This document shows positions 36,027 through 57,297 of a stretch of DNA of 64,000 nucleotides, in pieces (position 1 is the first letter of the stretch; each line of letters begins with the position of its first letter). The notes below the pieces were generated by a model. The model did not search any database and was not told the DNA's origin. It worked only from the letters and a program-made list of their open reading frames with translations. The stretch comes from Allobrachymonas sp. GTDB lineage: Bacteria > Pseudomonadota > Gammaproteobacteria > Burkholderiales > Burkholderiaceae_C. The stretch covers positions 1 to 64,000 of the forward strand of contig JAUMWT010000002.1 of assembly GCA_030529505.1 (NCBI GenBank), in the 5' to 3' direction. Position numbers and translations under genes: made by a program.

Positions 36027-36452
36027 ATGCAGAGCATTGGTCCCTTGGTTGAATATGCGGTGTTTGCCGTGTTGCTGGTCTTGAGCATCATGGCCGTGGC
36101 CATCACGTTCGAGCGGCTGCGTTTTTATCGCACGCTGCAAGCCACGCGCTACAGCAGCCGCGCGCGGCTGGAGGCGGATTTGACGCGCCGCCTCAACCTC
36201 ATCGGCACCATTGGCGCCAACGCGCCCTATATCGGCCTGTTGGGCACGGTGCTGGGCATCATGATGACCTTCCAGACCCTGGGTTCGGGCAGCAATATGG
36301 ACGTGAAGTCGATCATGACGGGGCTGTCGCTGGCGCTCAAGGCCACGGCGGCGGGCATTGCGGTGGCGATTCCCTGCGTGGCGCTCAACAACATCCTGCG
36401 GCGCAAGGTGCGCGAGCATCTGGCGATTTTCGACGAGGCCAACGGCCAGTAA
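36027..36452 (+). CDS. exbB: TonB-system energiser ExbB
   Basis: 141 residues, the short ExbB form. Three membrane segments (about 8-27, 70-90, 105-125) with the MotA/TolQ/ExbB core: IGANAPYIGLLGTVLGIMMTFQ and MTGLSLALKATAAGIAVAIPCVALNN. With ExbD it forms the proton-driven inner-membrane motor for TonB. It is preceded by a Fur box. exbD follows after 23 bases. Confidence 0.93.
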   Translation: MQSIGPLVEYAVFAVLLVLSIMAVAITFERLRFYRTLQATRYSSRARLEADLTRRLNLIGTIGANAPYIGLLGTVLGIMMTFQTLGSGSNMDVKSIMTGLSLALKATAAGIAVAIPCVALNNILRRKVREHLAIFDEANGQ

Positions 36453-36475
36453 GTGCAGGCGGCGAGGAGTCAGTC

Positions 36476-36844
36476 ATGGACGAGGAAATGGACAACATCA
36501 ACATCGTGCCGCTGCTGGACATCATGCTGGTGCTGCTGACCATCGTGTTGACGACGGCGACCTTCGTCGTCAACGGGCGCATTCCGGTCGATCTGGCCAA
36601 GTCCAGTGCGGCCGCGCCCGCGCAAGCCGCCCCGCTGGTGCTGACGATGGCGGCCGACCGCAGCCTCTACCTCAACGACCAGCCCATTGCCGACCTGGCC
36701 AGCGGCCTGGCCGGCAAAGACCCTAACACGCCCGTGCTGCTGCGGGCCGATGGCAAGCTGGCCCTGCAAGACTTTGTGAGCACGGTGGATGCGATCAAGC
36801 AGCAAGGTTTTGCCAAGGTCAATCTGGAAGTGGAGCGGCTTTGA
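36476..36844 (+). CDS. exbD: TonB-system energiser ExbD
   Basis: 122 residues. N-terminal NINIVPLLDIMLVLLTIVLTT carries the essential membrane Asp (LLDIM), followed by a small periplasmic domain ending AKVNLEVERL. Partner of ExbB and TonB. AGGCGGCGAGGAG precedes the ATG. About 300 bp separate it from tonB. Confidence 0.93.
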   Translation: MDEEMDNINIVPLLDIMLVLLTIVLTTATFVVNGRIPVDLAKSSAAAPAQAAPLVLTMAADRSLYLNDQPIADLASGLAGKDPNTPVLLRADGKLALQDFVSTVDAIKQQGFAKVNLEVERL

Positions 36845-37152
36845 GGCGCGCGGGAAATTTTCTGCGCTCGCTTGAAGCGATAAGCGCCCGCTGCTCGACT
36901 TTTTGAACTTGTTCAATCTGGCAAATGCTTCGGTCAATGGGAACGGGCGATGTGCTGCGTGATGTGGTTCGAGGCCAGCGTGATGAATGCTTTTTGCATC
37001 TCCGATCTTGTTTCACCTTCAACCGTTCTGTGCCGAAACGTCGGTGAGCCAATGCTGAAAGCAAGGTTTCCGATCAGTCGCTTGCTGGCCACTCCTTCCC
37101 TTTATTTATGCCCCTTGCTTTTGTTTTTCCATGCCCACGTGATTGATTGCTT
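36845..37152. other. Intergenic region exbD-tonB
   Basis: 308 bp without an open frame or clear terminator; tonB may have its own promoter here, but none could be placed. Confidence 0.35.
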
Positions 37153-38337
37153 ATGAGCCCATCTGCGGCGCACCGCGCCTCATCCCCCCGCGTACAGCGC
37201 CCTTGGCAAGACTGGTTGCTGTCTCTGGCGCTGCATGCCATCGTGCTGGCGGCGCTGGCCTGGCTGACGCGCAGCGGCGAGCCGACGCCGCAGCAAATCG
37301 CCATCGACACCCCCATTGAATGGGCCGGGGGCGGCGGAGGGGGCGGCGGCGGTGGCGGAGAAGGTGATGGCCGCCTGGGTGGCGGTGGGGGCGGTGGTGA
37401 TGGCACCGAGCTGTTTGGTAAAGCTGGACGTAAACCTGCTGAAATCAATCAAGGTGCCAGTGATACTTCTGAACCAACGGCATCGCCTGCTGCGCCGAGC
37501 ACAGTCGATCAACGCGCAGAGGCGGTGAATACTGGCGCGTCAGCGCCGCAGGCTGATCGCAAAAAGCCAACCGCGAAAAAAGATCGTCCTAAGTCAGAGT
37601 CATCTGCCAAGCCCGCTAAACCTGCGCGAGCAGCCAGTGCGCCCGATGTTGAAGCCATCGTCGCGGCCAAAAAGCGCGAGCTGGCCGAGCAATTGGCCGC
37701 CCAGTATGGGCGCACGGAAAAAACTGGCATCGACGCCGCACAAACTGGCGGCATTGGCAGCGGTACGGGCACAGGCATCGGTTCGGGCAGCGGTACCGGC
37801 ATAGGCTCTGGCGAAGGCAGCGGCATTGGTGCGAGCAAAGGCTCGGGCACGGGCGGTGGCAGCGGGGGCGGCCTGGGTTCGGGCACCGGGCCGGGCATCG
37901 GCTCCGGTTCGGGCGGCGGTGTGGGTTCTGGAGAAGGCACAGGCACCGGTTCCGGCAAAGGCTCGGGCGTGGGCACAGGCGAAGGTTCGGGCGTAGGCTC
38001 CGGGGTGGGGTCTGGCGTGGGATCGGGCTATGGCGATGGCACCGGCCAAGCAAAAGCCAATTGGCAAAACGTGCTGCGCGCCTACCTTTCCAGCCGCAAG
38101 CGTTATCCGCAAGTGGCGCGCCGCCTGCGGCAAGAAGGCACGGTCAAGGTGCAAGCCAGCTTTGCGGCCGATGGCCGGCTGCTTTCGGCCACCCTGGCCG
38201 AAAGTTCGGGCATTGCCGTGCTGGACGAAGCCGCCCTGCAACTGGTGGCCGAAGCAGCCAGTGCCGCAGCGGCCAAGGCCCAGCCGGGGCAGGCGGTGCA
38301 GATCAAAGTTCCGGTGGAATATAAGTTGCTGGATTGA
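37153..38337 (+). CDS. tonB: TonB-like protein with glycine-rich spacer
   Basis: 394 residues. One membrane anchor (about 22-40, WLLSLALHAIVLAALAWLT) and a C-terminal TonB domain (about 305-394): NVLRAYLSSRKRYPQVARRLRQEG and VPVEYKLLD. TonB spacers are normally Pro/Lys/Glu-rich; here two Gly tracts (about 59-87) and a roughly 100-residue array of GxGSG-type repeats (about 199-297; DNA 37745-38046) make up the spacer, with a Lys/Ala segment between. It transmits proton-motive energy to outer-membrane receptors, most plausibly the receptor at 42.1 kb. ATG 37153 chosen as family-like start. Confidence 0.88.
   Translation: MSPSAAHRASSPRVQRPWQDWLLSLALHAIVLAALAWLTRSGEPTPQQIAIDTPIEWAGGGGGGGGGGGEGDGRLGGGGGGGDGTELFGKAGRKPAEINQGASDTSEPTASPAAPSTVDQRAEAVNTGASAPQADRKKPTAKKDRPKSESSAKPAKPARAASAPDVEAIVAAKKRELAEQLAAQYGRTEKTGIDAAQTGGIGSGTGTGIGSGSGTGIGSGEGSGIGASKGSGTGGGSGGGLGSGTGPGIGSGSGGGVGSGEGTGTGSGKGSGVGTGEGSGVGSGVGSGVGSGYGDGTGQAKANWQNVLRAYLSSRKRYPQVARRLRQEGTVKVQASFAADGRLLSATLAESSGIAVLDEAALQLVAEAASAAAAKAQPGQAVQIKVPVEYKLLD
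37745..38046 (+). repeat. Glycine-repeat-coding array within tonB
   Basis: Tandem imperfect short units such as GGCTCGGGC / GGCACAGGC / GGTTCGGGC encode alternating Gly-Ser, Gly-Thr and Gly-Ile/Val. Such arrays can change length by slippage. Confidence 0.8.
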
Positions 38338-38753: not shown

Positions 38754-39701
38754 ATGCAAGCACATGTTCAACGCCCCTTGACTGCGGTACAGCCTTTGCC
38801 TCAAAGCGTAAAAGAGGCGCTTTCCGCCTGGGATCCCTCGCAGCCGCAATACTGGAACGCCCTGTGGCGCAGCACGCAAGAGGCTTCGCGGGCATCGGGG
38901 CGCGGCATCGAGTGCTGGCAAAACTGGGACGATCTGGCCGACGCCCGGCAGTATTGGCAGCGGGTATCAGCAAGTGAACAGAAAAATGAACGCGCGCACG
39001 AACTGCTGGCCGAGGTGCAGTCCCACTGGCGGGTGCTGGACATTGGCGCCGGCCCGGGCAATCTGGCCCTGCCCCTGGCGGGCAAGGCTGCGCACGTCAC
39101 GGCCGTGGAGCCGGCCAGCGGCATGGCGCAAGTCTTGCGCGAAAACATTGCGCAGGCTGGTTTGAGCAATGTGTCGGTCGTTCAAAAACGCTGGGACGAC
39201 GTGGATGTGGCCCAGGACTTGCAGGGCCCGTACGAGCTGGTCGTGATCTCTTTCGCCTTTGGCATGCTGGATTTGCTCGACACCCTTCGAAAAATTCTGG
39301 CCGTGGCCAGCCAGCGCGTGATTTTCTACTGGCATGCCGGCCCGCAAGCCTGGGATGTGGACGCCGTCAAGCTCTGGCCCCTGCTGCACGGCAAAACATT
39401 CACACCCATCCCCAAGGCCGAGGTGATTTTCAACCTGCTCTACACCCTGGGCATTTATGCGGACGTCAAGTCCATGCCGCGCTCGTTCACCACGGCGTTC
39501 GAGAGCCTGGACGAAGCCATGCAGGAATACGGCAAGCGTTACGCCGTGGCAGAGGATGATGCGCCGCGCCGCCAACTGTTGTTGCAGTATCTGCAAGCGC
39601 ATCTGGTGCAAGAGGATGGGCGCTATCTGCAACGCGCATACAACACCGGCATGCGCATCGCCTGGAACGTGCCGGCCGTCAATCCGCTCCAAACGCCTTG
39701 A
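38754..39701 (+). CDS. Class I SAM-dependent methyltransferase
   Basis: 315 residues. SAM motif I VLDIGAGPGNLALPLAG, acidic loop VEPASGMAQVL, and IRKR-type later motifs; the N-terminal 75 residues (YWNALWRSTQEASRASGRGIECW) form a substrate domain I do not recognise from a named family. It lies between tonB and the porin, on the same strand as the whole uptake cluster, so it may act on the imported compound or be unrelated. Cytoplasmic. Substrate unknown. Confidence 0.78.
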   Translation: MQAHVQRPLTAVQPLPQSVKEALSAWDPSQPQYWNALWRSTQEASRASGRGIECWQNWDDLADARQYWQRVSASEQKNERAHELLAEVQSHWRVLDIGAGPGNLALPLAGKAAHVTAVEPASGMAQVLRENIAQAGLSNVSVVQKRWDDVDVAQDLQGPYELVVISFAFGMLDLLDTLRKILAVASQRVIFYWHAGPQAWDVDAVKLWPLLHGKTFTPIPKAEVIFNLLYTLGIYADVKSMPRSFTTAFESLDEAMQEYGKRYAVAEDDAPRRQLLLQYLQAHLVQEDGRYLQRAYNTGMRIAWNVPAVNPLQTP

Positions 39702-40215: not shown

Positions 40216-41376
40216 ATGAAAAAAACTTTGCTTGCTGCTGCCCTGATGAGTGCAGTGGGTGCCAGCTATGCGCAATCCGGCTCGGTCACGCTGTACGGTA
40301 TCGTCGATACGGGCTACGAGGTTACAAACACCAAGCAGGAAACATATACGGAAGCAACAAAAACCACCACAAGCACTAAAAACAGGAAAACAGGCTTGAA
40401 GAGCGGTGGGCTGGCTGGCCCTCGTGTGGGCTTCCGCGGTGAAGAGCCTCTGGGCAACGGCTTGTCGGCTACTTTCAACCTGGAAATGGGCTTCAATTCC
40501 ACCACTGGCGCATTTGCTTCTCCGTATAAGGGCAGCACTGGCTTCACACGCCGTTCCATCGTTGGTTTGAAGGGTGCTTTTGGTCACCTGAATTTGGGCT
40601 TGAACAACACCGCGGTTGACAATTTCGCAATGGATATCCAGGGGAATATCCGCGAGTCTTTCGTTACAGGCAAGGCTGTTGGCACTTTCTATACAGGCAA
40701 ATTCGGTGGCCTGTCGGTAGAAGCTTTTGCTGCGCACAACCGCGACAGCCAGACCAATACCAATGGCATCAAGGTCGAAGACAACTTCTCGGAGTTCGGC
40801 TATGGTGCGGGCCTCAAGTATGCGGCTGGCCCCTTCTCCATCAGCGCCGCAGCGCAGCAGTTCCGTGGCGGTAAAGTTGGGCGTCATCCAGTCACAGGCG
40901 TGGAAACCAGCAATTCGCGCACTCGCCGTGACGAATACGGCGTGGCTGCCAACTACAAGCTGGGCGACACGCGCTTCGTGACCCATTACGTGGCGGTTAA
41001 GGCCTCTCCCTACCACAGCGGTGCCTATTCCCGTTGGGAACATGCCAACTTCGGCGTAGAGCACAAGATGGGCAATGCAACACTGGTGGCAGAAGTTGGC
41101 CGCAACCGCGCCAAAGCCCTGAACAACACCGCCGTGTTGGGTGATTACGCCAAGCCCGTATCCGGCTTCGGCGGCGACTTCAGAGTCAAAGGCGCAGGCA
41201 CCAACTTCGTTGTGGGCGCCAACTACGCCTTCAGCAAGCGTACCGATGTTTATGTGCGCGTAGGTCGCAAGAAAGCCATGAACGCTTCTGTCTACAACGC
41301 GAACAATGGCGCGCTGCTCGGCAAAGTGAAAGGCCGCATGGACTACGCTTTTGCCGGTCTGCGTCACCGCTTCTAA
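40216..41376 (+). CDS. Neisserial-type general outer-membrane porin
   Basis: 386 residues. Signal peptide MKKTLLAAALMSAVGASYAQ, then SVTLYGIVDTGYEV, the standard first strand of the Burkholderiales/Neisserial trimeric porins, GFRGEEPLGNGLSATFNLEMGF, SIVGLKGAFGHLNLG, and a terminal Phe in GLRHRF. It allows diffusion of small solutes. A strong terminator follows. Codon choice is less G+C-biased than in neighbours, as often seen in highly expressed porin genes. Confidence 0.93.
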   Translation: MKKTLLAAALMSAVGASYAQSGSVTLYGIVDTGYEVTNTKQETYTEATKTTTSTKNRKTGLKSGGLAGPRVGFRGEEPLGNGLSATFNLEMGFNSTTGAFASPYKGSTGFTRRSIVGLKGAFGHLNLGLNNTAVDNFAMDIQGNIRESFVTGKAVGTFYTGKFGGLSVEAFAAHNRDSQTNTNGIKVEDNFSEFGYGAGLKYAAGPFSISAAAQQFRGGKVGRHPVTGVETSNSRTRRDEYGVAANYKLGDTRFVTHYVAVKASPYHSGAYSRWEHANFGVEHKMGNATLVAEVGRNRAKALNNTAVLGDYAKPVSGFGGDFRVKGAGTNFVVGANYAFSKRTDVYVRVGRKKAMNASVYNANNGALLGKVKGRMDYAFAGLRHRF

Positions 41377-42094: not shown

Positions 42095-44302
42095 ATGAAA
42101 TTTCGTTTGAACAAACTCACTTTTTTGCTTTTGGGTTGCGCGTACGGCGCGAGCTTTGCGCAGCAGCCAGGCATGACGGCATCTGCCCAGGCTGGCGCAG
42201 GCGCAACGGACAGCGCCACGCTGGAAGAAACGGTGGTCACGGCAACCCGCACGGCCACGACGGCCAATGAAGCGCCTGGCGCGGTTTTCGTCGTCAATAA
42301 AGAGAAGATGGAGGCGCGCAACATCCAGTCGCTGGATCAGGCGCTCAACAACGTGCCAGGGGTGTACAACAAACGTTCCAAGGGCTTGATGGACACGACT
42401 TCGGGCATCGTCATGCGCGGCATGACGGGCGAGGCGCGCAACCTGATCCTGCAGGACGGCATGCCGATGAACAGCCCTTATACGGGCAATGTGAGCTGGG
42501 GCGGCATTGCGGCAGACAACTACCAGAATGCCGAGGTGGCTTTGGGCGCGGCTTCCAGCCTGTATGGCAACCACGCCATGGGCGGGGTGGTGAACTTCGT
42601 CAGCCGCATGCCCAGGCAGCGCGAGTTCAATTTCAAGCTGGGCTATGGCGGGGGCCTGGGCAGCGATCTGGCGATGAAAAATCTGCGGCGCGGCTTCGTC
42701 TCGTTTGGCGACCGCCTGGCCAACGGCTTCTCGTACTATGCCTCGGTTGCCGGCGCTGCCACGGATGGCTATCGCACGGCTTATGTGCTCAACACCCGCG
42801 TGCCTGCCGGAACGACGGGCGCCGTGCCCACACGAACCAGCACGGGCGGGCGCACCCATATCCTGGGCGAAGGTGGCAACAATGAGTGGAAAGAAGGCAG
42901 CGTGACCTTGCGCGCGGCCTATGCCTTGCCCCAGAACGGCGAGGCTCGCCTGAGCTACATGCGCAATCAGTACCACTATTCCTATGACGGCGACCCTGTC
43001 ACCTATCTGCGTCAGGGCGGCAGGCCGGTCTTCAAGCCCAGCGAGCAGTCTTTTGCCGATGGCCAGGGCAAAACCATTGAAGACAATGTGCAGGCCAGCG
43101 TGGAAACGGCGCTGGGCGCGGGCCGTCTGCGCGTGAACGGCGGCTTGCGCAAGCAGGGCACCAACTGGTACACCATCGTCAGGCCGGGCGCCAAGCTCAA
43201 TGGCACGGGGCCGGGCGAACTCAACTCCACGCCCACCCGCATGGCTTATCTGGACGGGCAATACACCTTCAGCCCGTTTGACAAGCATCTGTTGGTGGTG
43301 GGCGCATCGCTGCAGGCCAACAAGGCCGACAACACCACTTCCAAACTGCGCAATCACGGCGATATCGGCTCCACCAACGGGCTGGTGTCGCGCATGGGCG
43401 GCAAAACCCGTCTGCTGGGCCTGTTCGTGCAAGACGAGATCAGCTTCACCGACCAATTGACCGCCACCGTGGGCCTGCGCTGGGATCAGATCCGCATGTC
43501 GGGCGGCTATCAAGACAACACTTCCTATCCGTCGGTCACGCACAGCGCCTTCAGCCCCAAGCTGGGCCTGCGCTATCACGTCAACGACAAGCTGTCGCTG
43601 CGCTCCAGCCTGGGCCGCTCTTTTCGCGCCCCCAGCGTGTATGACCTGTACCGCGTGTGGTATGGCAGCGGCGCCAACCCCATCGAATACGGCAACAACC
43701 CCTTCCTGAAACCCGAAAAAGCCATCGGCTGGGACATTGGCGCCGATTTCAAACCCTGGGAAGGGGCGGAAGTCAAAGCCACCTACTTCATGAACCGCTT
43801 GAGCGACATGATCTTCCGCAAGGACATCACGCCGAAGAAGAAAACCTGGGACAACGCAGGCAAGGCCAGGGCGCAGGGCGTTGAGCTGGACTTCCGCCAG
43901 AAGCTGGGGCCGAACTGGACGGTGATGGCCAATGCCACCTTCAACCACACGCGCATGCTGGATGTGCCCAACAAGCGTGCCATCGAAGGCAAGAAGTTCC
44001 AGTTCGTGCCCGATCGCATGGCCAATCTGGGCGTGGAGTTCAAGCAAGGCCCGTTCGATGCGTCGGCCTGGATGCAGCACGTTTCCAAGCGCCATGCCAA
44101 CGACATGAACAGCGATGTGGTCAACGGGGTTTCTGGCTCGCGCGATCCCTACACCCTGGTCAACCTCAAGGCGGGTTATCAGATCACGAAAAACGTGAAG
44201 GCTTCGCTGGCCATCGACAACGCCTTCAACCGCAAGTACTTCGACGTGACAGCGCGTGCGCCGGGGCGTTCTTACTACCTGGAGCTGTCCGGCAAGTTCT
44301 GA
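42095..44302 (+). CDS. TonB-dependent outer-membrane receptor (metal chelate / tetrapyrrole candidate)
   Basis: 735 residues. Signal peptide (about 1-22), TonB box ETVVTATR (near 45-52), plug domain (MRGMTGEARNLILQDGMPMNS, GAASSLYGNHAMGGVVNFVSR) and a 22-strand barrel ending in YYLELSGKF. A FRAP motif (F510-P513, SFRAPSVYDLYR) and NPFLKPE follow each other, the order found in haem receptors, although the intervening His of classical haem receptors is missing. It starts the receptor / CobN-like / ABC series. Substrate unproven: haem or another metallotetrapyrrole is favoured, corrinoids are possible. Its TGA stop is exactly the left flank of repeat copy 8. Confidence 0.88.
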   Translation: MKFRLNKLTFLLLGCAYGASFAQQPGMTASAQAGAGATDSATLEETVVTATRTATTANEAPGAVFVVNKEKMEARNIQSLDQALNNVPGVYNKRSKGLMDTTSGIVMRGMTGEARNLILQDGMPMNSPYTGNVSWGGIAADNYQNAEVALGAASSLYGNHAMGGVVNFVSRMPRQREFNFKLGYGGGLGSDLAMKNLRRGFVSFGDRLANGFSYYASVAGAATDGYRTAYVLNTRVPAGTTGAVPTRTSTGGRTHILGEGGNNEWKEGSVTLRAAYALPQNGEARLSYMRNQYHYSYDGDPVTYLRQGGRPVFKPSEQSFADGQGKTIEDNVQASVETALGAGRLRVNGGLRKQGTNWYTIVRPGAKLNGTGPGELNSTPTRMAYLDGQYTFSPFDKHLLVVGASLQANKADNTTSKLRNHGDIGSTNGLVSRMGGKTRLLGLFVQDEISFTDQLTATVGLRWDQIRMSGGYQDNTSYPSVTHSAFSPKLGLRYHVNDKLSLRSSLGRSFRAPSVYDLYRVWYGSGANPIEYGNNPFLKPEKAIGWDIGADFKPWEGAEVKATYFMNRLSDMIFRKDITPKKKTWDNAGKARAQGVELDFRQKLGPNWTVMANATFNHTRMLDVPNKRAIEGKKFQFVPDRMANLGVEFKQGPFDASAWMQHVSKRHANDMNSDVVNGVSGSRDPYTLVNLKAGYQITKNVKASLAIDNAFNRKYFDVTARAPGRSYYLELSGKF

Positions 44303-44490
44303 GAACCTGTTCGATGCCTCTTCACCGGCGTTTGAATGATGGAGGCGGACGGTCTGTTGCGTTGCCAATCTTGTCATCCGTTTTGCGGATGTCGAACGGC
44401 TACGCACTGCGCCACATACAAAGATGTGCGCCTTGCAGCCCGTCCCGCACGCTGTCCAATCGCCTCGCCGTTGAGATTTTGAACAGATTC
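44303..44490 (+). repeat. MITE-like repeat, copy 8
   Basis: 188 bp, ends GAACCTGTTC and GAACAGATTC. Left flank TGA is the stop codon of the receptor gene; right flank CGA. The interior shares CTGCGCCACATACAAAGATG with copy 5. Confidence 0.88.
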
Positions 44491-44544
44491 CGAGAACCGG
44501 AACAGCGCCCGTTCGCGTTGAAGATGGCCTTCAGCGCGAAACCG

Positions 44545-44584
44545 CCGCAGCGGCCCGCCGTCGGGCTGTTGCGGCTTTTCCGCC
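44545..44584 (+). terminator. Terminator-like hairpin between repeats 8 and 9
   Basis: Long stem GCCGCAGCGGCCCG / CGGGCTGTTGCGGC (a few mismatches) followed by TTTTCC. Probably the original terminator or attenuator after the receptor gene. Confidence 0.6.
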
Positions 44585-44592
44585 TCATCCGA

Positions 44593-44780
44593 GAACCTGC
44601 TCGAAGTCTCCTCATGGGTGCTTGAAAATGGAAGCAGGCGCTCTGCGGCGTTGCAAATCTTGTCGATCATCTTGCACATGTCGCACGGGCTATGCACTTC
44701 GCTCATGTGCCTTGATGTGCGCCTTGCATCCCATTCCGCCCCCTATCCAATCGCCTCACATTGAAACTTTGAACAGGTTC
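44593..44780 (+). repeat. MITE-like repeat, copy 9
   Basis: 188 bp, ends GAACCTGCTC and GAACAGGTTC; left flank CGA, right flank TGA. Direct orientation relative to copy 8, 102 bp apart. Its end is 27 bp ahead of the start codon of the CobN-like gene. Confidence 0.88.
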
Positions 44781-48749: not shown

Positions 48750-48883
48750 TGTTTGGCCCATGTGCCGTGCGTGATGTGCGGCTCGCCAGATGCGGTGAAG
48801 CAGCGGCGGCTTGCTTTGGCGCTTTCGTTTTTGCATTTTTGTTTCGCGGGCGCTTTTGCATGAACACCCTGATGGAGATGAGC

Positions 48884-50047
48884 ATGAAACCAAGCAAGCG
48901 GATAGCCCCTGTTTTCTGGGGCGTGTGGCTGGCGGCGCTGCTGGGCCTGTCGGCCTGCCGCCCGGCGGGCCCTGAAGAAGCGGCAGGGGCGGCCTCTGCG
49001 CCAGCGCCTGCCGCCAGTGCAGCGCAGCAGGCGCAGGCCGGTGCCGGGCCCGAGCGCCAGACGGCAGCTGCGGCGGCCGGATCGGCGGCGTCGGCCATGG
49101 CCAGAAGCCGGGCCGTGGCGGCCAGCATTCAGCAGCCGGTGCGCCGCATCGTGGTGTTGAACTCCGACGGCCTGGAAGCCCTGCGCCTGCTGGAGGCCGA
49201 TGATCGGGTCGTTGGCGTTTTTTCCGGCATCACGCACGAGGCGGGCCTGTGGCCGGAAAAAGCCAAGCTGCCCCATGTGGGGCGCTGGAGCGAGCCCAAT
49301 GTGGAGGCCATTGCCCAGCTGAAGCCCGATGTGGTGATCCACTATCACAAGAGCAGCGCGCATTTGGAAGATCGGCTGCGGCCCCTGGGCATCAAGGTGC
49401 TGCGCATGGACTTTTACAAGGTGCACACGCTGGAGCAGGAAATGAGCTTGCTGGGCGAACTGCTGGGGCGGCCAGAGCAGGCCCGGCGCTTCAATGCCTG
49501 GCATCGCGGCATTCTGCAGCGGGTGCAGCAGCAGTTGTCGGGCCTGCCTGCCAAGGCCAGGGTGTATCTGGAAAACTATTCCGACTACAGCGCCGCAGGC
49601 CCGGGATCCGGCCTGCACGAGCTTTGCGATCTGGCCGGCTGCCTCAATATCGCTGCGGGCCTGAAGACGCCCTACCCCAAGGTCACGCCCGAATGGGTGG
49701 TGGCGGCCAAGCCCGACATGCTGCTTAAGGTTTACGGCAAGGTGGATGGGTATACGCTGCAAGACGCTGGCGAATACAACCGGATTCGCCAGCAGATGAT
49801 GGCGCGCCCGGCCTGGCAACACATTCAAGCCGTGCGCGCCGGCCAGGTGCACGTGGTGGATGGCTCGCTCACATCGGGCCCGCGCGTGGGCGTGGCCGTG
49901 GCCTACATCGCGCATTGGCTGTACCCGCAGCAGATGCAATCCATCGATCCGGATGCCTTGCACCAGGAATATCTTGAACGCTTCATGCGCGTGCCTTTCA
50001 AGGGACGCTATTTTTCGGATCCCGCCCAGAACAGGGCATCGTCCTGA
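48884..50047 (+). CDS. Periplasmic binding lipoprotein for metal chelate (BtuF/HmuT-like), first copy
   Basis: 387 residues. Signal with lipobox GLSACRP, an Ala-rich linker to about residue 80, then a BtuF/FepB-type helical-backbone binding protein: RRIVVLNSDGLEALRLLEADDRVVGV, EPNVEAIAQLKPDVVI, VDGSLTSGPRVGVAVAYIAHWLYP. It shares its whole layout with the next gene, so the two arose by duplication. Two Cys in ELCDLAGC are conserved between them. Start could also be ATG 48860; GGAG ahead of 48884 favours the latter. It should hand the substrate to the FecCD-type permease. Confidence 0.85.
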   Translation: MKPSKRIAPVFWGVWLAALLGLSACRPAGPEEAAGAASAPAPAASAAQQAQAGAGPERQTAAAAAGSAASAMARSRAVAASIQQPVRRIVVLNSDGLEALRLLEADDRVVGVFSGITHEAGLWPEKAKLPHVGRWSEPNVEAIAQLKPDVVIHYHKSSAHLEDRLRPLGIKVLRMDFYKVHTLEQEMSLLGELLGRPEQARRFNAWHRGILQRVQQQLSGLPAKARVYLENYSDYSAAGPGSGLHELCDLAGCLNIAAGLKTPYPKVTPEWVVAAKPDMLLKVYGKVDGYTLQDAGEYNRIRQQMMARPAWQHIQAVRAGQVHVVDGSLTSGPRVGVAVAYIAHWLYPQQMQSIDPDALHQEYLERFMRVPFKGRYFSDPAQNRASS

Positions 50048-50052
50048 ATCAG

Positions 50053-51096
50053 ATGAACAAGCCGACGATTTTTGCAAAACGATGGGTCGCCATGCGCCTG
50101 ATGCTGGCTGCGTGCCTGCTGGGCCTGGCGCAGAGCGGCTGGGCATTGGCGGTGACGGATTCCACCGGGCGCACGGTGGAAGTCAAGACGCCCGTGCAGA
50201 AAATGGTGATCCTCAACTCGGCCGCCATGGAGATGGCGCGCATTCTGGGCGCCGAAGACCGGGTGTTGGGCGTTTCCACGCACATTGCCAAAGAGCTGCT
50301 GGCCATGGGTCTGCCCGCCAAGGAGGCGGTGGGTTCCTGGCAAGAGCCCAATGTGGAAGCCATCGTCAAGCTTGCGCCGGACGTCGTCATCGTCTATGCC
50401 GGCAGCGCCCTGCACATACAAGACAAGCTCAAGCCCTTTGGCATCGCCGTGCTGCGGCTGGATTTGTACAAGCTCAACACCATGCCGCAAGAGATTGATG
50501 CTCTGGCCCGCCTGCTGCACAAGCAAGAGCAGGCCCGGGCTTTTCTGGCGTGGCACACAGGCATTCTGCAGGGCCTGCAAAAGCGCATGGCGGCGTTGCC
50601 CCAGAAAACACCGGCCTACCTCGAAAGCTATTTCGACTATCATGTGGCCGGCATCGACGGGGGCCTGCACCAGCTGTGCAGGCATGCGGGCTGCCAGGAT
50701 ATTGCCAGCGACTTTTCCGCCGGGGTGAAACGGGTGCTGCCCGAGTGGATCGTGCGCGAGAACCCGGCGGCCATCTTCAAGATGTACAGCCGCTCAGACG
50801 AGTACCAGCTGCCGAGCCCGGCACCCTACAACCAGATGCGCGATGCCATCATGGCGCGCCCGGCCTGGCGCAGCATGCAGGCCGTGCAGTCCGGCCGGGT
50901 GCATGTGATGGAATCTTCCCTGTTCAGCACGCCGCGCAGCGCGGTGGGCGCGGCCTATATGGCCAAGTGGCTGCATCCGCAACAGTTGGCCGATATCGAC
51001 CCCGATGCCTTGCATGCGCAATACATGCAGCGTTTTTTGCGCCTGCCAGCGCGCGGCGTGTATTTTTCCACCAGCCCAGCGGCGGCTGCGCCATGA
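50053..51096 (+). CDS. Periplasmic binding protein for metal chelate (BtuF/HmuT-like), second copy
   Basis: 347 residues with a cleavable signal (about 1-32, SGWALA) instead of a lipobox. Same fold and phrases as the preceding gene: MVILNSAAMEMARILGAEDRVLGV, EPNVEAIVKLAPDVVIVY, QLCRHAGC, AYMAKWLHPQQL. One copy tethered and one soluble suggests division of labour, for example different substrates or capture and delivery. It starts five bases after the first copy and overlaps the permease gene. Confidence 0.87.
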   Translation: MNKPTIFAKRWVAMRLMLAACLLGLAQSGWALAVTDSTGRTVEVKTPVQKMVILNSAAMEMARILGAEDRVLGVSTHIAKELLAMGLPAKEAVGSWQEPNVEAIVKLAPDVVIVYAGSALHIQDKLKPFGIAVLRLDLYKLNTMPQEIDALARLLHKQEQARAFLAWHTGILQGLQKRMAALPQKTPAYLESYFDYHVAGIDGGLHQLCRHAGCQDIASDFSAGVKRVLPEWIVRENPAAIFKMYSRSDEYQLPSPAPYNQMRDAIMARPAWRSMQAVQSGRVHVMESSLFSTPRSAVGAAYMAKWLHPQQLADIDPDALHAQYMQRFLRLPARGVYFSTSPAAAAP

Positions 51097-52136
51097 GGAA
51101 CCCCGCCATGACCGTGGACTCGATCGCTGCCGACTACCAGGCGCGCACCCGCCGCCGCCTGGCGTTTTTGCTGCTCAGCGCCTTGCTGCTCGCGCTGGGC
51201 CTGCTGCTTTCCATCTCTTTGGGCGCGAGCGAAATGTCGGTGGCGCAAACCTTCGCTGCCTTGTGGAGCGGCCAGGGGCAGGATCACGACATCGTCTGGG
51301 CCTTGCGCATGCCGCGTGCGGCCATCGCCGCCGTGGTGGGTTTTGGCCTGGGCCTTTCGGGCACCGTGTTCCAGGCCGTGCTGCGCAATCCCCTGGCCTC
51401 GTCTTCGACCTTGGGGGTGGCTTCGGCATCCGGCTTTGGGGCGGTGTGCGTCATCATGTTTCTGGGCGCAGACAGCTCCAATCTGGTGGTGGCCAGCGGC
51501 GCGTTCACGTTCGCCCTGCTCTCGGCCTGTTTCATTTTCGTCATCGCCAAAGTCAAGGGGGCTTCGTCCGAAACGCTGATCCTGACCGGCGTGGCGCAAA
51601 TGTTCCTGTTTTCTGCGCTGACCTCGCTGGGGCAGTACTTCAGCACGGTGGATCAGCTCGTCAACATCGTGTTCTGGTCTTTGGGCAGCCTGTCCAAAGC
51701 CGGCTGGACGGAGATCGCCCTGGCCAGCGCCATGATCCTGCTGCCAGCCCCCCTGCTGCTGTGGCGGGCCTGGGACTTCAATTTGCTGGCCATGGGCGAC
51801 GACACGGCCAAGGCCTCGGGCGTGCATGTGGAGCGGCTGCGCCTGTGGGCCATCGCCATCTCTTCGCTGGCAACGGCCGGCGCCATCTGCTTCACCGGCG
51901 TGATCGGCTTCGTGGGCCTGGTGGCGCCGCACATCACGCGCATGGTCATCGGCAACGACCACCAATACCTGCTGCCAGCTTCCGGCCTGGTGGGGGCGTT
52001 GCTGGTGGTCATGGCCGATATCGTGGGGCGCAGCATGCTGGCGCCGCAGATCGTGCCCATCGGCATCGTCACATCCTTGCTTGGCGTGCCTTTCTTCTTC
52101 TATCTTTTGATGCGCCGCGCGCGGGACAGTTGGTGA
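51093..52136 (+). CDS. FecCD/BtuC-family ABC permease
   Basis: 347 residues, normal size, about ten membrane helices. Family motifs: RMPRAAIAAVVGFGLGLSGTVFQAVLRNPLA near the N-terminus and ITRMVIGNDHQYLLPASGLVGALLVVMADIVGR near the C-terminus, with the ATPase-coupling loop between. ATG 51093 overlaps the previous stop (ATGA); ATG 51108 has the better GAGGA spacing and is also possible. Forms the inner-membrane channel of the metal-chelate importer. Confidence 0.93.
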   Translation: MRNPAMTVDSIAADYQARTRRRLAFLLLSALLLALGLLLSISLGASEMSVAQTFAALWSGQGQDHDIVWALRMPRAAIAAVVGFGLGLSGTVFQAVLRNPLASSSTLGVASASGFGAVCVIMFLGADSSNLVVASGAFTFALLSACFIFVIAKVKGASSETLILTGVAQMFLFSALTSLGQYFSTVDQLVNIVFWSLGSLSKAGWTEIALASAMILLPAPLLLWRAWDFNLLAMGDDTAKASGVHVERLRLWAIAISSLATAGAICFTGVIGFVGLVAPHITRMVIGNDHQYLLPASGLVGALLVVMADIVGRSMLAPQIVPIGIVTSLLGVPFFFYLLMRRARDSW

Positions 52137-52141: not shown

Positions 52142-52389
52142 GAGCCTGTTCACAGCCTTTCCATGCGTCCGCAGACCGCGGCGCGGGCCGCAGCCAATAT
52201 GGGCTGTCTTGGCAAGGGGGGTAACAAGGCGCATGGCCATTGGCTGTCTTGCCCGAAGGCTTGCTGCGCAAAGGCGGCATCTGCCGTGTTGCAAATGCTC
52301 GCCGGGCAGTTGGCCTGCCTGCGCTTTGCGCCTTGCAGCGACCACTTTTGCGCAGCAACGGGCGCGATGCAAAAATCATGAACAAGCTC
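52142..52389 (+). repeat. Diverged MITE-like repeat, copy 10, overlapping the ATPase start codon
   Basis: 248 bp from GAGCCTGTTC (52142-52151, preceded by TCA) to GAACAAGCTC (52380-52389). Interior keeps CTGCCGTGTTGCAAATGCTCG, like copy 2, but is longer and otherwise diverged. The right end contains codons 1-4 of the ATPase gene. Confidence 0.55.
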
Positions 52390-53196
52390 TTGCAAGCTCA
52401 CGATCTGGCCTTTGGCTACGGCACGCAGCGTATTTTCAGCGGCATCTCTCTGGACTTGCCCAGGGGACGCATGGTGTGCATTGCCGGGCCCAATGGCACA
52501 GGCAAAACCACGCTGGTGAAATGCATGGCGGGCATTTTCAGGCCGCAGGCAGGGCATGTCAGCATCGATGGCGTGGACACCCGCCAGCTGCCGCGCCGCG
52601 AGCTGGCCAGCCTGCTGGGCTATGTGCCGCAGAACATTCCTTCGCGGTTTCCGGCCACGGTGTTCGAAACGGTCTTGGCCGGCCGGCGGCCGCACATGGG
52701 GTGGCGGCCTTCCCAGCATGATTTGCAACTGGCTGCCGACAAACTCAGGCAGCTGCATCTGCAAGACCTGGCCATGCGCGACATGGCCAGCCTGAGCGGC
52801 GGGCAGGCGCAAAAAGTAATGCTGGCTCGCGCCCTGGCGCAGGAAACGCCGTATCTGATGCTGGACGAACCCACCAGCAGCCTGGACGTGCGGCACCAGC
52901 TCGAAATTCTCGACACCATTCGCGCCCTGGCGCGCGAGCGGGACTTGGGGGTGCTCATCATCATTCACGATCTGAATCTGGCCGCGCGCTATTGCGACCA
53001 GATCGTCATGTTGCATCAGGGGCGCGTGTTTTGCCAAGGCAAGCCTGCGGACGTCATCACCCCGCAGACCATGGCCGATGTTTATGGCGTAGAGGCTGAA
53101 GTGCGTCACAGCAATGGTTGCTTGCATATGCAGGTGCTGCGTGCGTTGCCCACTGCCGACGCGGACAGCCAGGAGGAGCAGCGCCTTGGTGCTTGA
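52378..53196 (+). CDS. Metal-chelate ABC transporter ATPase (FecE/BtuD/HmuV-like)
   Basis: 272 residues. Walker A AGPNGTGKTTLVKCMAG, Q-loop GYVPQNIPSRFPATVFETVLAGRRPH, signature LSGGQAQKVMLARAL, Walker B LMLDEPTSSLDV, H-loop IIHDLNLAAR. The C-terminal 20 residues continue beyond the usual end. The ATG at 52378 is supported by alignment with the family, although no good ribosome-binding site is visible and the codon sits inside the end of a repeat. Energises the FecCD-type permease. Confidence 0.92.
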   Translation: MNKLLQAHDLAFGYGTQRIFSGISLDLPRGRMVCIAGPNGTGKTTLVKCMAGIFRPQAGHVSIDGVDTRQLPRRELASLLGYVPQNIPSRFPATVFETVLAGRRPHMGWRPSQHDLQLAADKLRQLHLQDLAMRDMASLSGGQAQKVMLARALAQETPYLMLDEPTSSLDVRHQLEILDTIRALARERDLGVLIIIHDLNLAARYCDQIVMLHQGRVFCQGKPADVITPQTMADVYGVEAEVRHSNGCLHMQVLRALPTADADSQEEQRLGA

Positions 53197-54160
53197 GGCG
53201 CTCACGCTCACCTGGCAGCAGATGGCGCAGTTTGTGCCCAAAACCTTGCTCACCATGCTGCTTTCCATGGGCATGACCCACATGCTGATTGCCAAAGGCT
53301 TTTTGCGCCATCTCAGTCGCATCAGCCAGCCGTTGACGGCGCGCATGGGCCTGCCAGAAACAGTCATTGCCGCATCCGTGCTGGCGTTTGGTTCGGCCTT
53401 GAGCGCCAATGCCATGCTGGCCGAGCTGTACCGCAAGCAGCAGCTCAGCGAGCAAGAGGCTTTTCTGGGTGCGATACTCAACGGCGCATCCATCAACGTC
53501 AAGGAAATCTTCACCTACCAGCTGCCCGTCATGCTGCCGCTGTTGGGCTGGAAGGCGGGCAGCATCTACCTGGCATGCTTTTCTCTGGCGGCCGTCATGC
53601 GCTATGCCTATGTGCTGGTGCATGCTCGCAGGGCCAAGCGCCAACGCGCGCCTGAGCAGGCTGCGGCCCCTGCTGCATCTACTGCGTCTGCTGTGCTTGT
53701 GGCGCCATCAAGCAGCATGCGCAAACAGCTGCGCCAGTTTTTGAAAGTGGCGACCACCTATGTGCTCATCACTTTTGGCGTGCTGTTCGTCTTCCATGCC
53801 GGGGTGGGCGCGTGGTTCGAAAAAATGGTGGCGCCCATCAGCAGCGCCCTGCAATTGCCGGTGGCTGTGGCGGTGCCGATGGCCGTGTTCATCTTCAAGC
53901 CGGTGGCCGGGGCTTCAGCCATCAGCCTGCTGCGCAACAACGGCACGATCACGGATATCGATGCAGCGCTCACCGTGGTGGTGGGCAGCCTGCTGTTGCT
54001 GCCGCTTTACGGTTTTCGCAGCGGCTCCATCGCGCGCACGGTTTCTTTCTTCGGGCCACGGTTGGGGTTCAGAATTTCTGCCACTTCAACCTCGCTGGCG
54101 ATTGTTTCCCGCTTGATCTTTCTGGTTTTGCTCATGGGCTACAAGCTCACGGCAAATTGA
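53189..54160 (+). CDS. Gate-domain-like (nucleoside-recognition type) membrane protein
   Basis: 323 residues, about eight membrane helices. Two Gate-like halves: TMLLSMGMTHMLIAKGFLRHLSRI...SALSANAMLAELYRKQQLSEQEAFLGAILNGASINVKEIF and a second after a polar loop (about 150-185). Gate domains occur in FeoB-type and nucleoside-transport proteins. GTG 53189 is preceded by AGGAGG at a slightly long distance and overlaps the ATPase stop. Its position between importer ATPase and the chelatase partners suggests a role in moving the released metal or the tetrapyrrole (inference). Confidence 0.68.
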   Translation: MLEALTLTWQQMAQFVPKTLLTMLLSMGMTHMLIAKGFLRHLSRISQPLTARMGLPETVIAASVLAFGSALSANAMLAELYRKQQLSEQEAFLGAILNGASINVKEIFTYQLPVMLPLLGWKAGSIYLACFSLAAVMRYAYVLVHARRAKRQRAPEQAAAPAASTASAVLVAPSSSMRKQLRQFLKVATTYVLITFGVLFVFHAGVGAWFEKMVAPISSALQLPVAVAVPMAVFIFKPVAGASAISLLRNNGTITDIDAALTVVVGSLLLLPLYGFRSGSIARTVSFFGPRLGFRISATSTSLAIVSRLIFLVLLMGYKLTAN

Positions 54161-56223
54161 TGGCGGGGCTGCTTTCACACATCATGGACAGGGCCGTTTT
54201 TCCATTCAGCGCCATCATCGGGCAAGAGCGCCTCAAGCTCGCCCTTTTGCTCAATGCCGTCAACCCGCGCATTGGCGGCGTGTTGATCAAAGGCGAAAAA
54301 GGCACGGCCAAATCCACGGCCGTGCGGGCGTTGGCCAGGCTTTTGCCCGCCATGGATGTGGTGCAGGGTTGCCCCTATCGCTGTGCACCGCAGACGCCGC
54401 AAGCGCAATGCCCGCATTGCCAGGGGCGCGAGCACTTGCCGGCCGAGCGTGTGCCCATTCGCATCGTGACCTTGCCGTTGAACGCCACCGAAGACCGCTT
54501 GGTGGGCGGCATCGATTTGAACCAGGCCGTGCAACAAGGGCGGCGCACGCTGCAACCGGGGCTTCTGGCCGCCGCGCACCGGGGCATTTTGTATGTGGAT
54601 GAAGTCAACCTGCTGGACGATCATCTGGTGGATGCCATTCTGGACGCAGCCGCTTCGGGCCAGAACGTGATCGAACGCGAGGGCATGTCGTTTGTGCATG
54701 ACAGCGATTTCACGCTGGTGGGCACCATGAACCCCGAAGAAGGCGATTTGCGTCCGCAGCTGCTGGATCGTTTCGGGTTGTGCGTAGAAATCCAGTCCGA
54801 GGCCGATCCGTTTTTGCGCACCGTGCTCATGGAGCGGCGCGAACAGTTCGATGCCGACCCGCGCCAATTCATGGCCCGTTTTGCCGCAGAAGATGCGCGC
54901 CAAACGCAGCAAATCATCACGGCGCGCCATCTGCTCCAAACGGTGCGCATGCCGCAGCATCTGCGCCAGCACATCAGCGAACTGTGCATGGCCAACTGCG
55001 TGGCGGGGCACCGGGCTGACCTGGTGCTGGAGCAAGCCGCCCGGGCGCACGCCGCTCTGCGCGAGCGTGCGGCCGTAACGCTGGACGACATTGAGCAAGT
55101 GGCCGATATGGTGCTGCTGCACCGCAAGCGTGATGCCATGCCTCCACCGCCGCCTGCACCTCCGCCGCCGCCCGATCATGATCACGATCATGAAAACGAC
55201 AGCGAGCAGCCGCCACCCGAGCAAGATCCGGACGAGCAAGTCGAGCAAACTCCGCCCCCGCCTGAGTCAAACGATGCCAATCAGCCCGAGCCCGAGCAGC
55301 AAGCGCAGGAAGAAAGCGAAGAGCGCGACGGCGATGAGGCCGATCCTGCAGAAGACGATGCCGCAGGCGACCGCGTGGTGGATCGCATCTTCGATATTGG
55401 CGAAACCTTCAACGTCAAGAAATTTGCCACGGCTAAAGACCGCACCTACCGCCGCGGCTCGGGCAAGCGCTCGCGCAGCCGCATTGCGGGCAAACAGGGC
55501 TGTTACGTCAAAAGCGTGATGGGGCGCCATCTCGACGACATTGCCATTGATGCCACCCTGCGTGCCGCAGCGCCTTACCAGCTGGCGCGCAGGGCAGAGA
55601 GCGATTTGGCCATTGTGCTCAAGCCGCAAGATCTGCGCGGCAAGATCCGCGAGAAGCGCCTGGGCAATTTCCTGCTGTTCGTGGTGGATGCCAGTGGTTC
55701 CATGGGCGCGCGCAGCCGCATGATGGCATCCAAGGGGGCCATCATGTCGCTGCTGCTGGATGCTTACCAAAAGCGCGATCAGGTGGCCATGATCACCTTT
55801 CGCAAAGACGAAGCGGTGCTCAACCTGCCGCCGACTTCATCCATCGAACTGGCCGCTACGCTATTGCGGGAGATGCCCGTGGGCGGGCGCACGCCCTTGG
55901 CGTCGGCGCTGGTCAAGTCTTACGAAGTGCTGCGCAACCACCTCACGCGCGAGCCGACGGCACGGCCCATTGCCCTGTTGATCACCGATGGCCGATCCAA
56001 CGTGGCTTTGGGCAATGGCAAGCCGCAAGAGGAAGTGCTGGCATTGGCCGAAAAGCTGGCCTTGGACGAGCGCATCCGCTTCATGGTGGTGGATACCGAA
56101 TCGGACGGGCTGCTGCAATTCGGCCTGGCCCGGAAACTCGCTGCCGCCCTGCAGGCCGACTATTTCCAGATCAAAGACCTCAAGGCGGCCACCCTGCTGG
56201 ACATTGTTAGACAAGGAAGCTGA
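54160..56223 (+). CDS. ChlD/BchD-like chelatase subunit with active-type AAA+ and VWA domains
   Basis: 687 residues. AAA+ domain with intact Walker A (GEKGTAKST, from residue 45), Cys pairs (GCPYRC and QCPHC), Walker [14 protein letters not shown] and [17 protein letters not shown]; an acidic Pro/His-rich linker (about 327-400, containing DHDHDHE); and a C-terminal von Willebrand A domain with MIDAS motif DASGSMG (D510) and TDGRSN. It couples to ChlI to drive metal chelatases of the CobN/ChlH class. TGATG overlap with the preceding gene. Confidence 0.9.
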   Translation: MAGLLSHIMDRAVFPFSAIIGQERLKLALLLNAVNPRIGGVLIKGEKGTAKSTAVRALARLLPAMDVVQGCPYRCAPQTPQAQCPHCQGREHLPAERVPIRIVTLPLNATEDRLVGGIDLNQAVQQGRRTLQPGLLAAAHRGILYVDEVNLLDDHLVDAILDAAASGQNVIEREGMSFVHDSDFTLVGTMNPEEGDLRPQLLDRFGLCVEIQSEADPFLRTVLMERREQFDADPRQFMARFAAEDARQTQQIITARHLLQTVRMPQHLRQHISELCMANCVAGHRADLVLEQAARAHAALRERAAVTLDDIEQVADMVLLHRKRDAMPPPPPAPPPPPDHDHDHENDSEQPPPEQDPDEQVEQTPPPPESNDANQPEPEQQAQEESEERDGDEADPAEDDAAGDRVVDRIFDIGETFNVKKFATAKDRTYRRGSGKRSRSRIAGKQGCYVKSVMGRHLDDIAIDATLRAAAPYQLARRAESDLAIVLKPQDLRGKIREKRLGNFLLFVVDASGSMGARSRMMASKGAIMSLLLDAYQKRDQVAMITFRKDEAVLNLPPTSSIELAATLLREMPVGGRTPLASALVKSYEVLRNHLTREPTARPIALLITDGRSNVALGNGKPQEEVLALAEKLALDERIRFMVVDTESDGLLQFGLARKLAAALQADYFQIKDLKAATLLDIVRQGS

Positions 56224-56226
56224 TTC

Positions 56227-57297
56227 ATGACGACATCCATTCCACCCTCGGCCAAAAGCCAACGGCCCATCTATCCCTTCACGGCCCTTGTGGGGCAGGA
56301 GATGATGAAGCAGGCCCTGATCCTCAACGTCATCAATCCGGCGCTTTCAGGTGTGCTCATTCGCGGTGAAAAGGGCACGGCCAAATCCACGGCCGTGCGG
56401 GCGCTGGCCAAAATCCTGCCAAAAATCGAAGTGGCCAAAGGCTGCCCTTTCAATCGGCCGCCGCAAGAACCGGTGCTTGGTTGCACATGCCCGGCCTGCC
56501 AGAAACAAATCGCCAGCGGCCAAGTGCCCGAAGCAGAAATGCGCCCCGTGCCGGTGGTGGAACTGCCCGTAGGCGCGACCGAAGACCGCGTGGTGGGCAC
56601 CCTGGATCTGGAGCATGCTCTGCAAAAAGGCGAAAAGCGCATTGAGCCGGGCCTGCTGGCAGCGGCCCACCGCGGCATCTTGTATGTGGATGAAGTCAAC
56701 CTGCTGGATGACCACGTGGTAGACGTGCTGCTGGATTCGGCCGCGATGGGCGTCAACACCATCGAGCGCGAGGGCGTGAGCTTCAGCCACCCCGCGCGAT
56801 TTACGCTGGTGGGCACCATGAATCCCGAAGAAGGCGAGCTGCGCCCGCAGCTGCTCGATCGCTTCGGCTTGTGCGTGAGCGTGGGCGGCATTGCTACGCC
56901 GCAAGACCGCGTCACCATCATGGAACGGCGCGCCGCGTTTGACCAAGACCCGGAGGCTTTTGAGGCGCAATGGCAGCAGGCCTCGCAAGAGCTGGTGGAG
57001 CGGATCGAAAAAGTGCGCGAAATCCTGCCGCAGGTCGAAATCAGCCGCGAGCTGATGCTGGAAATTGCCCGTTATTGCTTGGATGTGGGGGTGGATGGCC
57101 ACCGTGGCGACATCATCATTTTGAAAACGGCCAAAACCATCGCCGCTTACCGGGGAAGAAAACAGGTGGCCAAAGAAGACATTGAGCAAGCCGCCATGCT
57201 GGCGCTGCCGCATCGCATCCGCCGCCAGCCTTTGCAGGATGTGGTGGTGGATGTGAACAAGCTGCGCCAGAACAATCAGGCCAGGCAAGCGGGCTGA
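56227..57297 (+). CDS. ChlI/BchI-like chelatase AAA+ ATPase
   Basis: 356 residues. [23 protein letters not shown], Walker [17 protein letters not shown], a Cys set ([17 protein letters not shown]), the [13 protein letters not shown] insert, Walker [18 protein letters not shown], and [17 protein letters not shown] in the lid. Magnesium/cobalt chelatase motor subunit. It is clearly a paralogue of the AAA+ half of the preceding gene. Three bases separate them. Last gene of the uptake/chelatase series. Confidence 0.93.

Follow-up and report, generated by a model that had tools for sequence, protein, structure and literature searches.

The stretch analysed here, called the window below, comprises positions 1 to 64,000 of contig JAUMWT010000002.1 of Allobrachymonas sp. 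(assembly GCA_030529505.1; 2.39 Mb in 100 contigs, 83.5% complete, 4.25% contamination). Between positions 36027 and 57297 it carries genes for a TonB-dependent receptor, the ExbB-ExbD-TonB motor, two periplasmic binding proteins (PBPs), and a permease and ATPase of the ATP-binding cassette (ABC) type, together with a CobN-like large subunit and ChlD- and ChlI-like AAA+ subunits. As the first-pass annotation of this DNA had claimed, all of these genes lie on the + strand, and they are recognised by profiles, several of them below curated cut-offs (Table 1). The large subunit belongs to a clade marked by a conserved set of cysteines, and the combination of an importer with a three-subunit AAA+ chelatase recurs in unrelated phyla.

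Table 1. Features of the importer and chelatase cluster. Percentages are identities to proteins of L174 and L176, two importer loci of the same genus.
Feature	Coordinates	Strand	Remarks
Fur-like 7-1-7 site	35999..36013	+	13 bases 5' of exbB start
exbB (ExbB2 type)	36027..36452	+	TIGR02805 143.6 bits, cut-off 135.35; 89% to L176
exbD	36476..36844	+	best TIGR02804, 89 bits, under cut-off of 123; 67% to L176
tonB, Gly-rich middle	37153..38337	+	TIGR01352, PF03544 (TonB C-terminus); start chosen by us
class I S-adenosylmethionine (SAM) methyltransferase	38754..39701	+	no NCBIfam family over cut-off
trimeric porin (PorB-like)	40216..41376	+	NF040479 62 bits, far under cut-off
TonB-dependent receptor	42095..44302	+	best TIGR01785 (haem/haemoglobin), 215 bits, cut-off 317
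two copies of dispersed ~190-base repeat	44301..44800	+	5' of CobN-like gene
CobN-like large subunit, cysteine clade	44808..48749	+	C388, C526, C531, C536, C1110, C1111
PBP1	48860..50047	+	siderophore/haem/B12 type; 61% to L176; start chosen by us
PBP2	50053..51096	+	siderophore/haem/B12 type; 47% to same L176 protein as PBP1
FecCD-type permease	51093..52136	+	74% to L174 and L176; start chosen by us
ABC ATPase	52378..53196	+	best haem-ABC profile 245 bits, cut-off 261; 73-76% to L174/L176; start chosen by us
Gate-domain membrane protein	53222..54160	+	PF07670 34.5 bits, cut-off 29.6; start chosen by us
ChlD-like AAA+/VWA subunit	54160..56223	+	TIGR02442 804 bits, cut-off 779; Walker A, DASGS; start chosen by us
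ChlI-like AAA+ subunit	56227..57297	+	best 497 bits to TIGR02442, under cut-off; Walker A

From the CobN-like gene to the ChlI-like gene the intergenic spacings run from -4 to 241 bases, and the stretch therefore suits a single transcript. Gaps of 308 to 718 bases occur between exbD and the CobN-like gene, so that exbBD, tonB, the methyltransferase, the porin and the receptor may be separate units; the porin is probably not part of the system. Both AAA+ subunits keep the Walker A motif GEKGTAKST and ChlD keeps DASGS, in line with the earlier claim that the importer lies beside a CobN-like, ChlD and ChlI set. No cob gene is present among the 20 open reading frames (ORFs) profiled in the window (31538-63792), as had also been stated, nor is any bch gene, and no cobalamin riboswitch was found in the 64,000 nucleotides. 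The Fur box reported ahead of exbB corresponds to the Fur-like site of Table 1. On a 7-1-7 consensus that we assume to be the appropriate one, the site has 12 of 14 matches, more than any other site on the + strand, and 50 mononucleotide shuffles of the window gave at most 11; on a 19-base consensus it scores 14/19, a value that one of five one-strand shuffles reached as well.

The large subunit, referred to as the window protein, passes the cut-off of NF004646 (PRK05989.2-4) only, with 1873.8 bits against 1468. It lies just under the cut-offs of the CobN family TIGR02257 (803 vs 822 bits) and the Mg chelatase H family TIGR02025 (BchH; 808 vs 829 bits). Its scores against solved structures are 576 bits for CobN (7c6o), 517 for ChlH and 342 for HmuS. 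In a tree of 76 rows it falls in a clade with 15 other rows. In a tree of 41 rows, calculated with the cysteine columns removed, this cysteine clade (15 rows) is supported at 100/100 and stands apart from HmuS (2 rows), ChlH (4) and B12-type CobN (9); its sister group consists of 18 rows, including the 9 B12-type CobN. The rows of the smaller tree were chosen by us, with 35 of the 76 dropped, among them the long rows L089, L090, L125 and L132_2; the long branches of HmuS and L060/L062 join one another, and the letter composition of many rows is unlike. The first-pass annotation had held that a firm grouping with CobN, together with a complete cobalamin pathway, would refute its reading. On the tree the outcome is mixed: the protein falls towards CobN, yet in a clade of its own.

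The clade includes Methanosarcinales, ANME-1, Kuenenia, Sporomusa, Acetobacterium and sulphate reducers, organisms that we take to be anaerobes. By path, the nearest rows are those of two Deltaproteobacteria metagenome-assembled genomes (MAGs), Desulfovirgula, Methanothrix and Methanosarcina. Because archaeal and bacterial rows are interleaved, gene transfer between archaea and bacteria within the clade is likely. A search of plasmids with the window protein gave 159 records, all below 60% identity, and the highest identity among the best 40 of the 159 was 32.9%. The loci compared are a sample of 80 out of 588 candidates and not a census. To call the system a proteobacterial machine, as had been done, is misleading, since its own genome alone passes the NF004646 cut-off in four overlapping samples (1/399 in the order, 1/369 in the class, 1/120 among relatives and 1/398 in the phylum).

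Cysteines C388, C526, C531, C536 and C1110 are present in all 16 rows of the clade and C1111 in 15, with Gly in L089. Outside the clade, cysteine occurs at 388, 526, 531, 536 and 1111 in none of 60 rows, and at 1110 in three. At position 1112, 13 of the 16 clade rows have Cys and the other three (the window protein included) have Gly, whereas one of the 60 others has Cys; the partial sequence L072 reads GCCC at this stretch. Positions 526, 531 and 536 form a C-x4-C-x4-C pattern in the gating loop. C536 aligns with the gating-loop Phe-502 of HmuS, and 1110-1112 align with its Leu-1207, Asp-1208 and His-1209 (PMC12583661, in part); the HmuS numbering was verified on the HmuS of locus L042, with M79, H254, F502, H506 and H538 in place. 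The second face of the cleft thus reads Ser-Asp-Asp in most CobN, Leu-Asp-His in HmuS, Cys-Cys-Gly in the window protein and Cys-Cys-Cys in 13 of the 16 clade rows. By alignment, the cysteine positions are a putative soft-metal or iron-sulphur (Fe-S) site.

The description of the cluster as HmuRSTUV-like does not hold, since the large subunit, nearer to CobN by score, fails most of the testable features that define HmuS. The superfamily histidine is kept as H572 in HVGTHG (HFG(T/A)HG in HmuS), and it is not diagnostic of HmuS because 75 of the 76 rows have it, the remaining row having a gap. At the LSLDHxxEFMGG motif of HmuS the window protein reads YDLFGCCGYFGNHGG. The column of His-254 is Gly (VKLQGFFMG), and that of Met-79 is Ser in a weakly aligned region. 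The window protein has 38 Met, against 56 and 68 in HmuS, the Met-rich insertion itself being unmapped. No stretch of 19 residues in the window protein reaches a mean hydropathy of 1.6; the HmuS of L042 and of L043 each have one hydrophobic segment at each end (mean hydropathy 2.2-3.0), and of the other 10 proteins checked a second CobN of this genome, on contig C99, alone has such a segment (1.78). A THG motif had been considered as an argument against CobN identity. KHG is found in 39 of the 60 non-clade rows, yet a haloarchaeal CobN in a cob cluster shares THG, and the argument was dropped.

Besides the window, 16 loci carry members of the clade (L064-L075, L077, L079, L080 and L089; L072 is partial), several of them ending at contig ends. 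Window-like FecCD, PBP or ATPase genes accompany CobN in nine (L065, L066, L068, L069, L070, L071, L073, L075, L089), and receptors are found in six (L065, L067, L071, L073, L075, and L079, where it follows a riboswitch). ChlD and/or ChlI are present in 14, the exceptions being L067, which covers 1.4 kb past CobN, and L069, which covers 142 bases before it. The Kuenenia locus (L065) comprises receptor, PBP, FecCD, ATPase, CobN, ChlD, ExbB, an ExbD-sized ORF and TonB. Thermodesulfovibrio (L073) and Thermodesulfobacterium (L075) have receptor, PBP, FecCD, ATPase and CobN, then ChlI and/or ChlD. Importer genes with this CobN also occur in Sporomusa (L071), Acetobacterium (L068, without receptor) and a Deltaproteobacterium (L070). 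Gate-like proteins are encoded in L070 (31%), between CobN and ChlI, and in L066 (21%). L070 has an FmdE that is 33% identical to the FmdE of L176. A membrane protein 3' of CobN and beta-propeller proteins 5' of it are common to Methanosarcina L064/L080 and Deltaproteobacterium L067, and L064 additionally has CbiQ and ATPases. Desulfovirgula L077 and Deltaproteobacterium L089 have one cysteine-type and one ordinary large subunit around a single ChlD/ChlI set; in L077 a radical-SAM protein is encoded too. The large-subunit gene is split into two ORFs in L073 (795 + 489 residues) and L075 (800 + 492), with overlaps of 1 and 8 bases; it is likewise in two ORFs in L079 (509 residues, from near the contig start, + 504) and spans two in L074.

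Nine genomes of the genus, the own one included, were searched with the receptor, and two of them, the incomplete assemblies G770 (76%) and G771 (71%), match at 52-54%. Their loci, L174 and L176, carry the receptor (50% identity, compared with 37-38% in L073/L075), one binding protein (59-61%), FecCD, ATPase and, 3' of the ATPase, the Gate protein (63-66%). L176 also has exbB, exbD, tonB (70%) and, adjoining the importer, the methyltransferase (64%), a counterpart of which (34%) lies near the Methanothrix CobN locus L069. Beside the importer, a gene of DUF2117, a family labelled archaeal, is found at L174:2506-3558 and L176:5589-6641 (271 and 266 bits). None of the eight other genus genomes passes the NF004646 cut-off; weaker matches occur in G764 and G770, and that of G764 groups with the C99 copy. 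Among the matches listed, the Gate protein was found in one of 399 family genomes sampled (the own genome); G770 and G771, which would match, do not appear among the listed genomes of that sample. The chelatase may have been either gained or lost within the genus.

Contig C99 of the same genome has two cobalamin riboswitches, CobO (NF004637), CobW, an ordinary CobN (TIGR02257, 1544 bits), a ChlI-like protein and a VWA protein; cobalt insertion is therefore seemingly covered elsewhere in the genome. HemH and two B12-binding proteins are encoded, and the cell probably makes haem and uses B12. A complete cobalamin pathway had been named as the other part of the evidence that would overturn the earlier reading. 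The tetrapyrrole-methylase family PF00590 has no more than two matches in the genome, of which about 16% may be missing, and an ordinary CobN is present; the cell may be without its own corrin-ring synthesis. Elsewhere, a cobalamin riboswitch at L005:6456-6654 lies ahead of a gene at 4074-6422 (-), which we take to be an anaerobic ribonucleotide reductase.

Four observations frame the interpretation: the HmuS features are absent, the cysteines mark a clade, importer and chelatase genes lie together, and two relatives have the importer without the chelatase. Our preferred reading, held tentatively and at somewhat less than an even chance, is that a class I chelatase of thiol type, driven by ATP, removes or exchanges the metal of an imported metallotetrapyrrole in the cytoplasm. 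The receptor, ExbBD-TonB, the two binding proteins, the FecCD permease and the ATPase would import a metal complex of tetrapyrrole size, and the soluble CobN-type chelatase with its own ChlI/ChlD motors would handle the metal of the ring in the cytoplasm. H572 would lie on one face of the cleft and Cys-Cys-Gly on the opposite face, with C526, C531 and C536 in the gating loop. A thiolate or Fe-S site would there take up or reduce the metal, and because of this the net result would be removal or exchange on a salvaged ring. We infer the class of substrate, the direction, the role of the cysteines and the sharing of one compound by importer and chelatase. Removal would be favoured by the thiol face, by the ordinary CobN elsewhere in the genome and by the pairing in L077/L089, where both types of large subunit share a motor set, the layout that stripping and reloading would need.

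Several points weigh against demetallation or exchange. With G1112, the window protein lacks the third cysteine of the second face, and the nearness of the cysteines to one another is predicted from the alignment only. No CobN, ChlD or ChlI gene lies between or directly after the importer genes in L174 and L176, and the importer therefore does not need the chelatase. The Kuenenia locus is adjoined by CbiM (over cut-off), a NikL-like protein (under cut-off) and CbiQ, and this Co/Ni transporter points to cobalt or nickel. A cobalamin riboswitch is present in three of the 16 clade loci and in none of the other 13; it lies 5' of the operon in L089 (and in L076, outside the clade) and downstream of it in L068 and L079. 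For some members of the clade this context favours a corrinoid or cobalt, against a haem-only reading. Moreover, insertion is the reaction for which AAA+ motors are known, and iron removal by HmuS needs no ATP (PMC12583661, in part).

Metal insertion, by which the complex would load cobalt, nickel or zinc into an imported ring that is metal-free or wrongly metallated, with the motors driving the reaction as they do in Mg and Co chelatases, is conceivable though rather unlikely. The retained ChlI and ChlD motifs, the grouping of the clade with ordinary CobN and not with HmuS or ChlH, the Co/Ni genes of Kuenenia and the riboswitch 5' of the L089 operon all suit it, but Ser-Asp-Asp of CobN is replaced by Cys-Cys-Gly/Cys, and a second, ordinary CobN is already in the genome. 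Even less probable is an ordinary aerobic cobaltochelatase of cobalamin synthesis, to which we give very little credence. NCBIfam names NF004646 a cobaltochelatase and the protein groups with CobN; however, it stays below the TIGR02257 cut-off that the C99 copy exceeds widely, has Cys-Cys in place of Ser-Asp, and lies in a window with no riboswitch and no cob gene among the profiled ORFs, whereas both kinds of context are found at C99. The two PF00590 matches in the 83.5%-complete genome also argue against it.

Salvage of haem iron by haem import and ATP-linked iron removal, as first proposed, appears unlikely. The combination of importer and chelatase genes is real and recurrent; haem as the substrate is a weaker case than the first-pass annotation held, and an unproven one, and the enzyme is more unusual than it had noted. 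The Fur-like site 5' of exbB would agree with haem, but ExbBD-TonB is often Fur-controlled whatever the cargo. The receptor and ATPase are best with haem profiles, both under cut-off, and the first match of PBP1 among solved structures is the haem-binding, ShuT-type 2r7a; its GYW tyrosine, presumably the haem ligand, nevertheless aligns with Arg in PBP1 (GRW). PBP2 matches other proteins first, a nickel-binding one being among eight matches. Between FRAP and NPFL, where we assume haem receptors to carry a histidine, the window receptor has none, and in all 732 residues of the similar receptor of L073 there are 2 His. The HmuS features are also missing. In Methanosarcina barkeri, CobN-like 'BtuS' proteins change with the iron source (PMC10846266, in part), which would suit haem salvage if these proteins belong to the clade. 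To an importer of a non-tetrapyrrole metallophore, with the chelatase an unrelated neighbour or later insertion, we assign a similarly low likelihood. L174 and L176 have the importer without the chelatase, and the receptor and binding proteins resemble siderophore types too; on the other side, several phyla show the same combination, and the receptors there are similar (closest in L073/L075, weaker elsewhere), and the Gate protein neighbours ChlI/ChlD in L070 too. The likelihoods of removal or exchange and of insertion overlap with those of the substrate rivals and need not add up to one.

A broader proposal, possible but on the doubtful side, is that the clade represents a third type of class I chelatase, a thiol/Fe-S type of anaerobes, fed by TonB/ABC or energy-coupling factor (ECF) importers, that would reductively strip salvaged tetrapyrroles, sometimes beside a reloading CobN. 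It would stand alongside the Asp type (Mg and Co insertion) and the His type (HmuS). A literature search, with subscription papers and preprints largely outside its coverage, found no description of the cysteine clade or of the importer combination. Importers in several phyla are now tied to a clade that a diagnostic set of cysteines marks out, and the ring, the metal and the direction become testable.

The flanks bear on the origin of the CobN gene. The right-flank gene at 57460-59298 has strong matches in three of the eight other genus genomes (84% G764, 67% G767, 47% G770) and weak or no matches in the rest; its neighbour at 59462-61621 also matches G764 and G767. A dispersed repeat of about 190 bases lies at 371-557, 6530-6610, 11787-11964, 17393-17578, 41958-42056, 44298-44494 and 44593-44784, some copies partial. 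It has at least 42 matches in the genome, on many contigs (40 of 210 first-look candidates scored), and with ends like GAACCTGTTC ... GAACAGGTTC it is perhaps a miniature inverted-repeat transposable element. Contamination was considered as the source of the CobN gene and rejected: the right flank matches the genus and the repeat adjoining the gene is genome-wide, and the gene is therefore taken as native. In GC and in GC at third codon positions the CobN, ChlD and ChlI genes do not fall outside the values of the genes around them, and composition thus gives no sign of transfer. A tRNA-Ser (34536-34625) lies 5' of the cluster; no repeat of at least 13 bases of its 3' part and the following bases occurs elsewhere in the window, and thus no island end is shown. 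The tRNA-Ser and an AbiJ-N-terminal/DUF7014 gene of lower GC (0.53) after it (34536-35585) are perhaps a small mobile insert. An Rfam Bcj11 match (67.5 bits) lies at 58528-58649 (-), inside an LplT/acyltransferase-like gene.

Among known systems, HmuS/BtuS of Bacteroidota (PMC12583661, PMC6460266 and, in part, PMC13227078) resembles the window in having a CobN-type protein beside a TonB receptor, an ExbB-like protein and the His of HFG(T/A)HG. The name BtuS goes back to Rodionov 2003, as cited in PMC6460266 (in part). In contrast to the window protein, with which it is 24-26% identical, HmuS is membrane-anchored, has other second-face residues and is described in parts of PMC12583661 as periplasmic, its iron removal being ATP-independent and NADH-dependent. 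ABC importer and AAA+ genes are absent from the two hmu loci seen (L042 and L043). These read HmuY, receptor, CobN-like, hypothetical, ExbB-like, DUF2149, and the order of binding protein, permease and ATPase attributed to Bacteroidota hmuRSTUV is found in neither; nor does the window cluster follow the hmu order (HmuT, ExbB-like HmuU, HmuV). The first-pass annotation mixed Bacteroidota hmu with Yersinia hmuRSTUV. The latter shares receptor, binding protein, FecCD permease and ATPase with the window, and for its HmuS a role as haem carrier in the cytoplasm is described (PMC13227078, in part).

Aerobic cobaltochelatase likewise has a soluble large subunit with two AAA+ partners, and its CobN is the nearest large group in the tree; the window protein differs by Cys-Cys for Ser-Asp, by the three-cysteine gating loop and by a neighbourhood in which no cob genes were seen. 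The Mg chelatases (ChlH/BchH with ChlI/ChlD) share the three-subunit design and the THG motif, but form a separate clade, and the profiled ORFs contain no bch genes. Archaeal 'CobN' without cob genes, the functions of which are called unclear in parts of PMC12583661, may be the same group as the Methanosarcina, Methanothrix and ANME-1 sequences of the cysteine clade; unlike them, the window copy belongs to a proteobacterium and is accompanied by a full TonB importer. Finally, a chlD paper, in the parts consulted, lists ChlD/ChlI-type proteins of unassigned function and no large subunit for Thermodesulfobacterium commune and Thermodesulfovibrio yellowstonii. The split large subunit seen here in MAGs of other species of these two genera may explain why it was missed.

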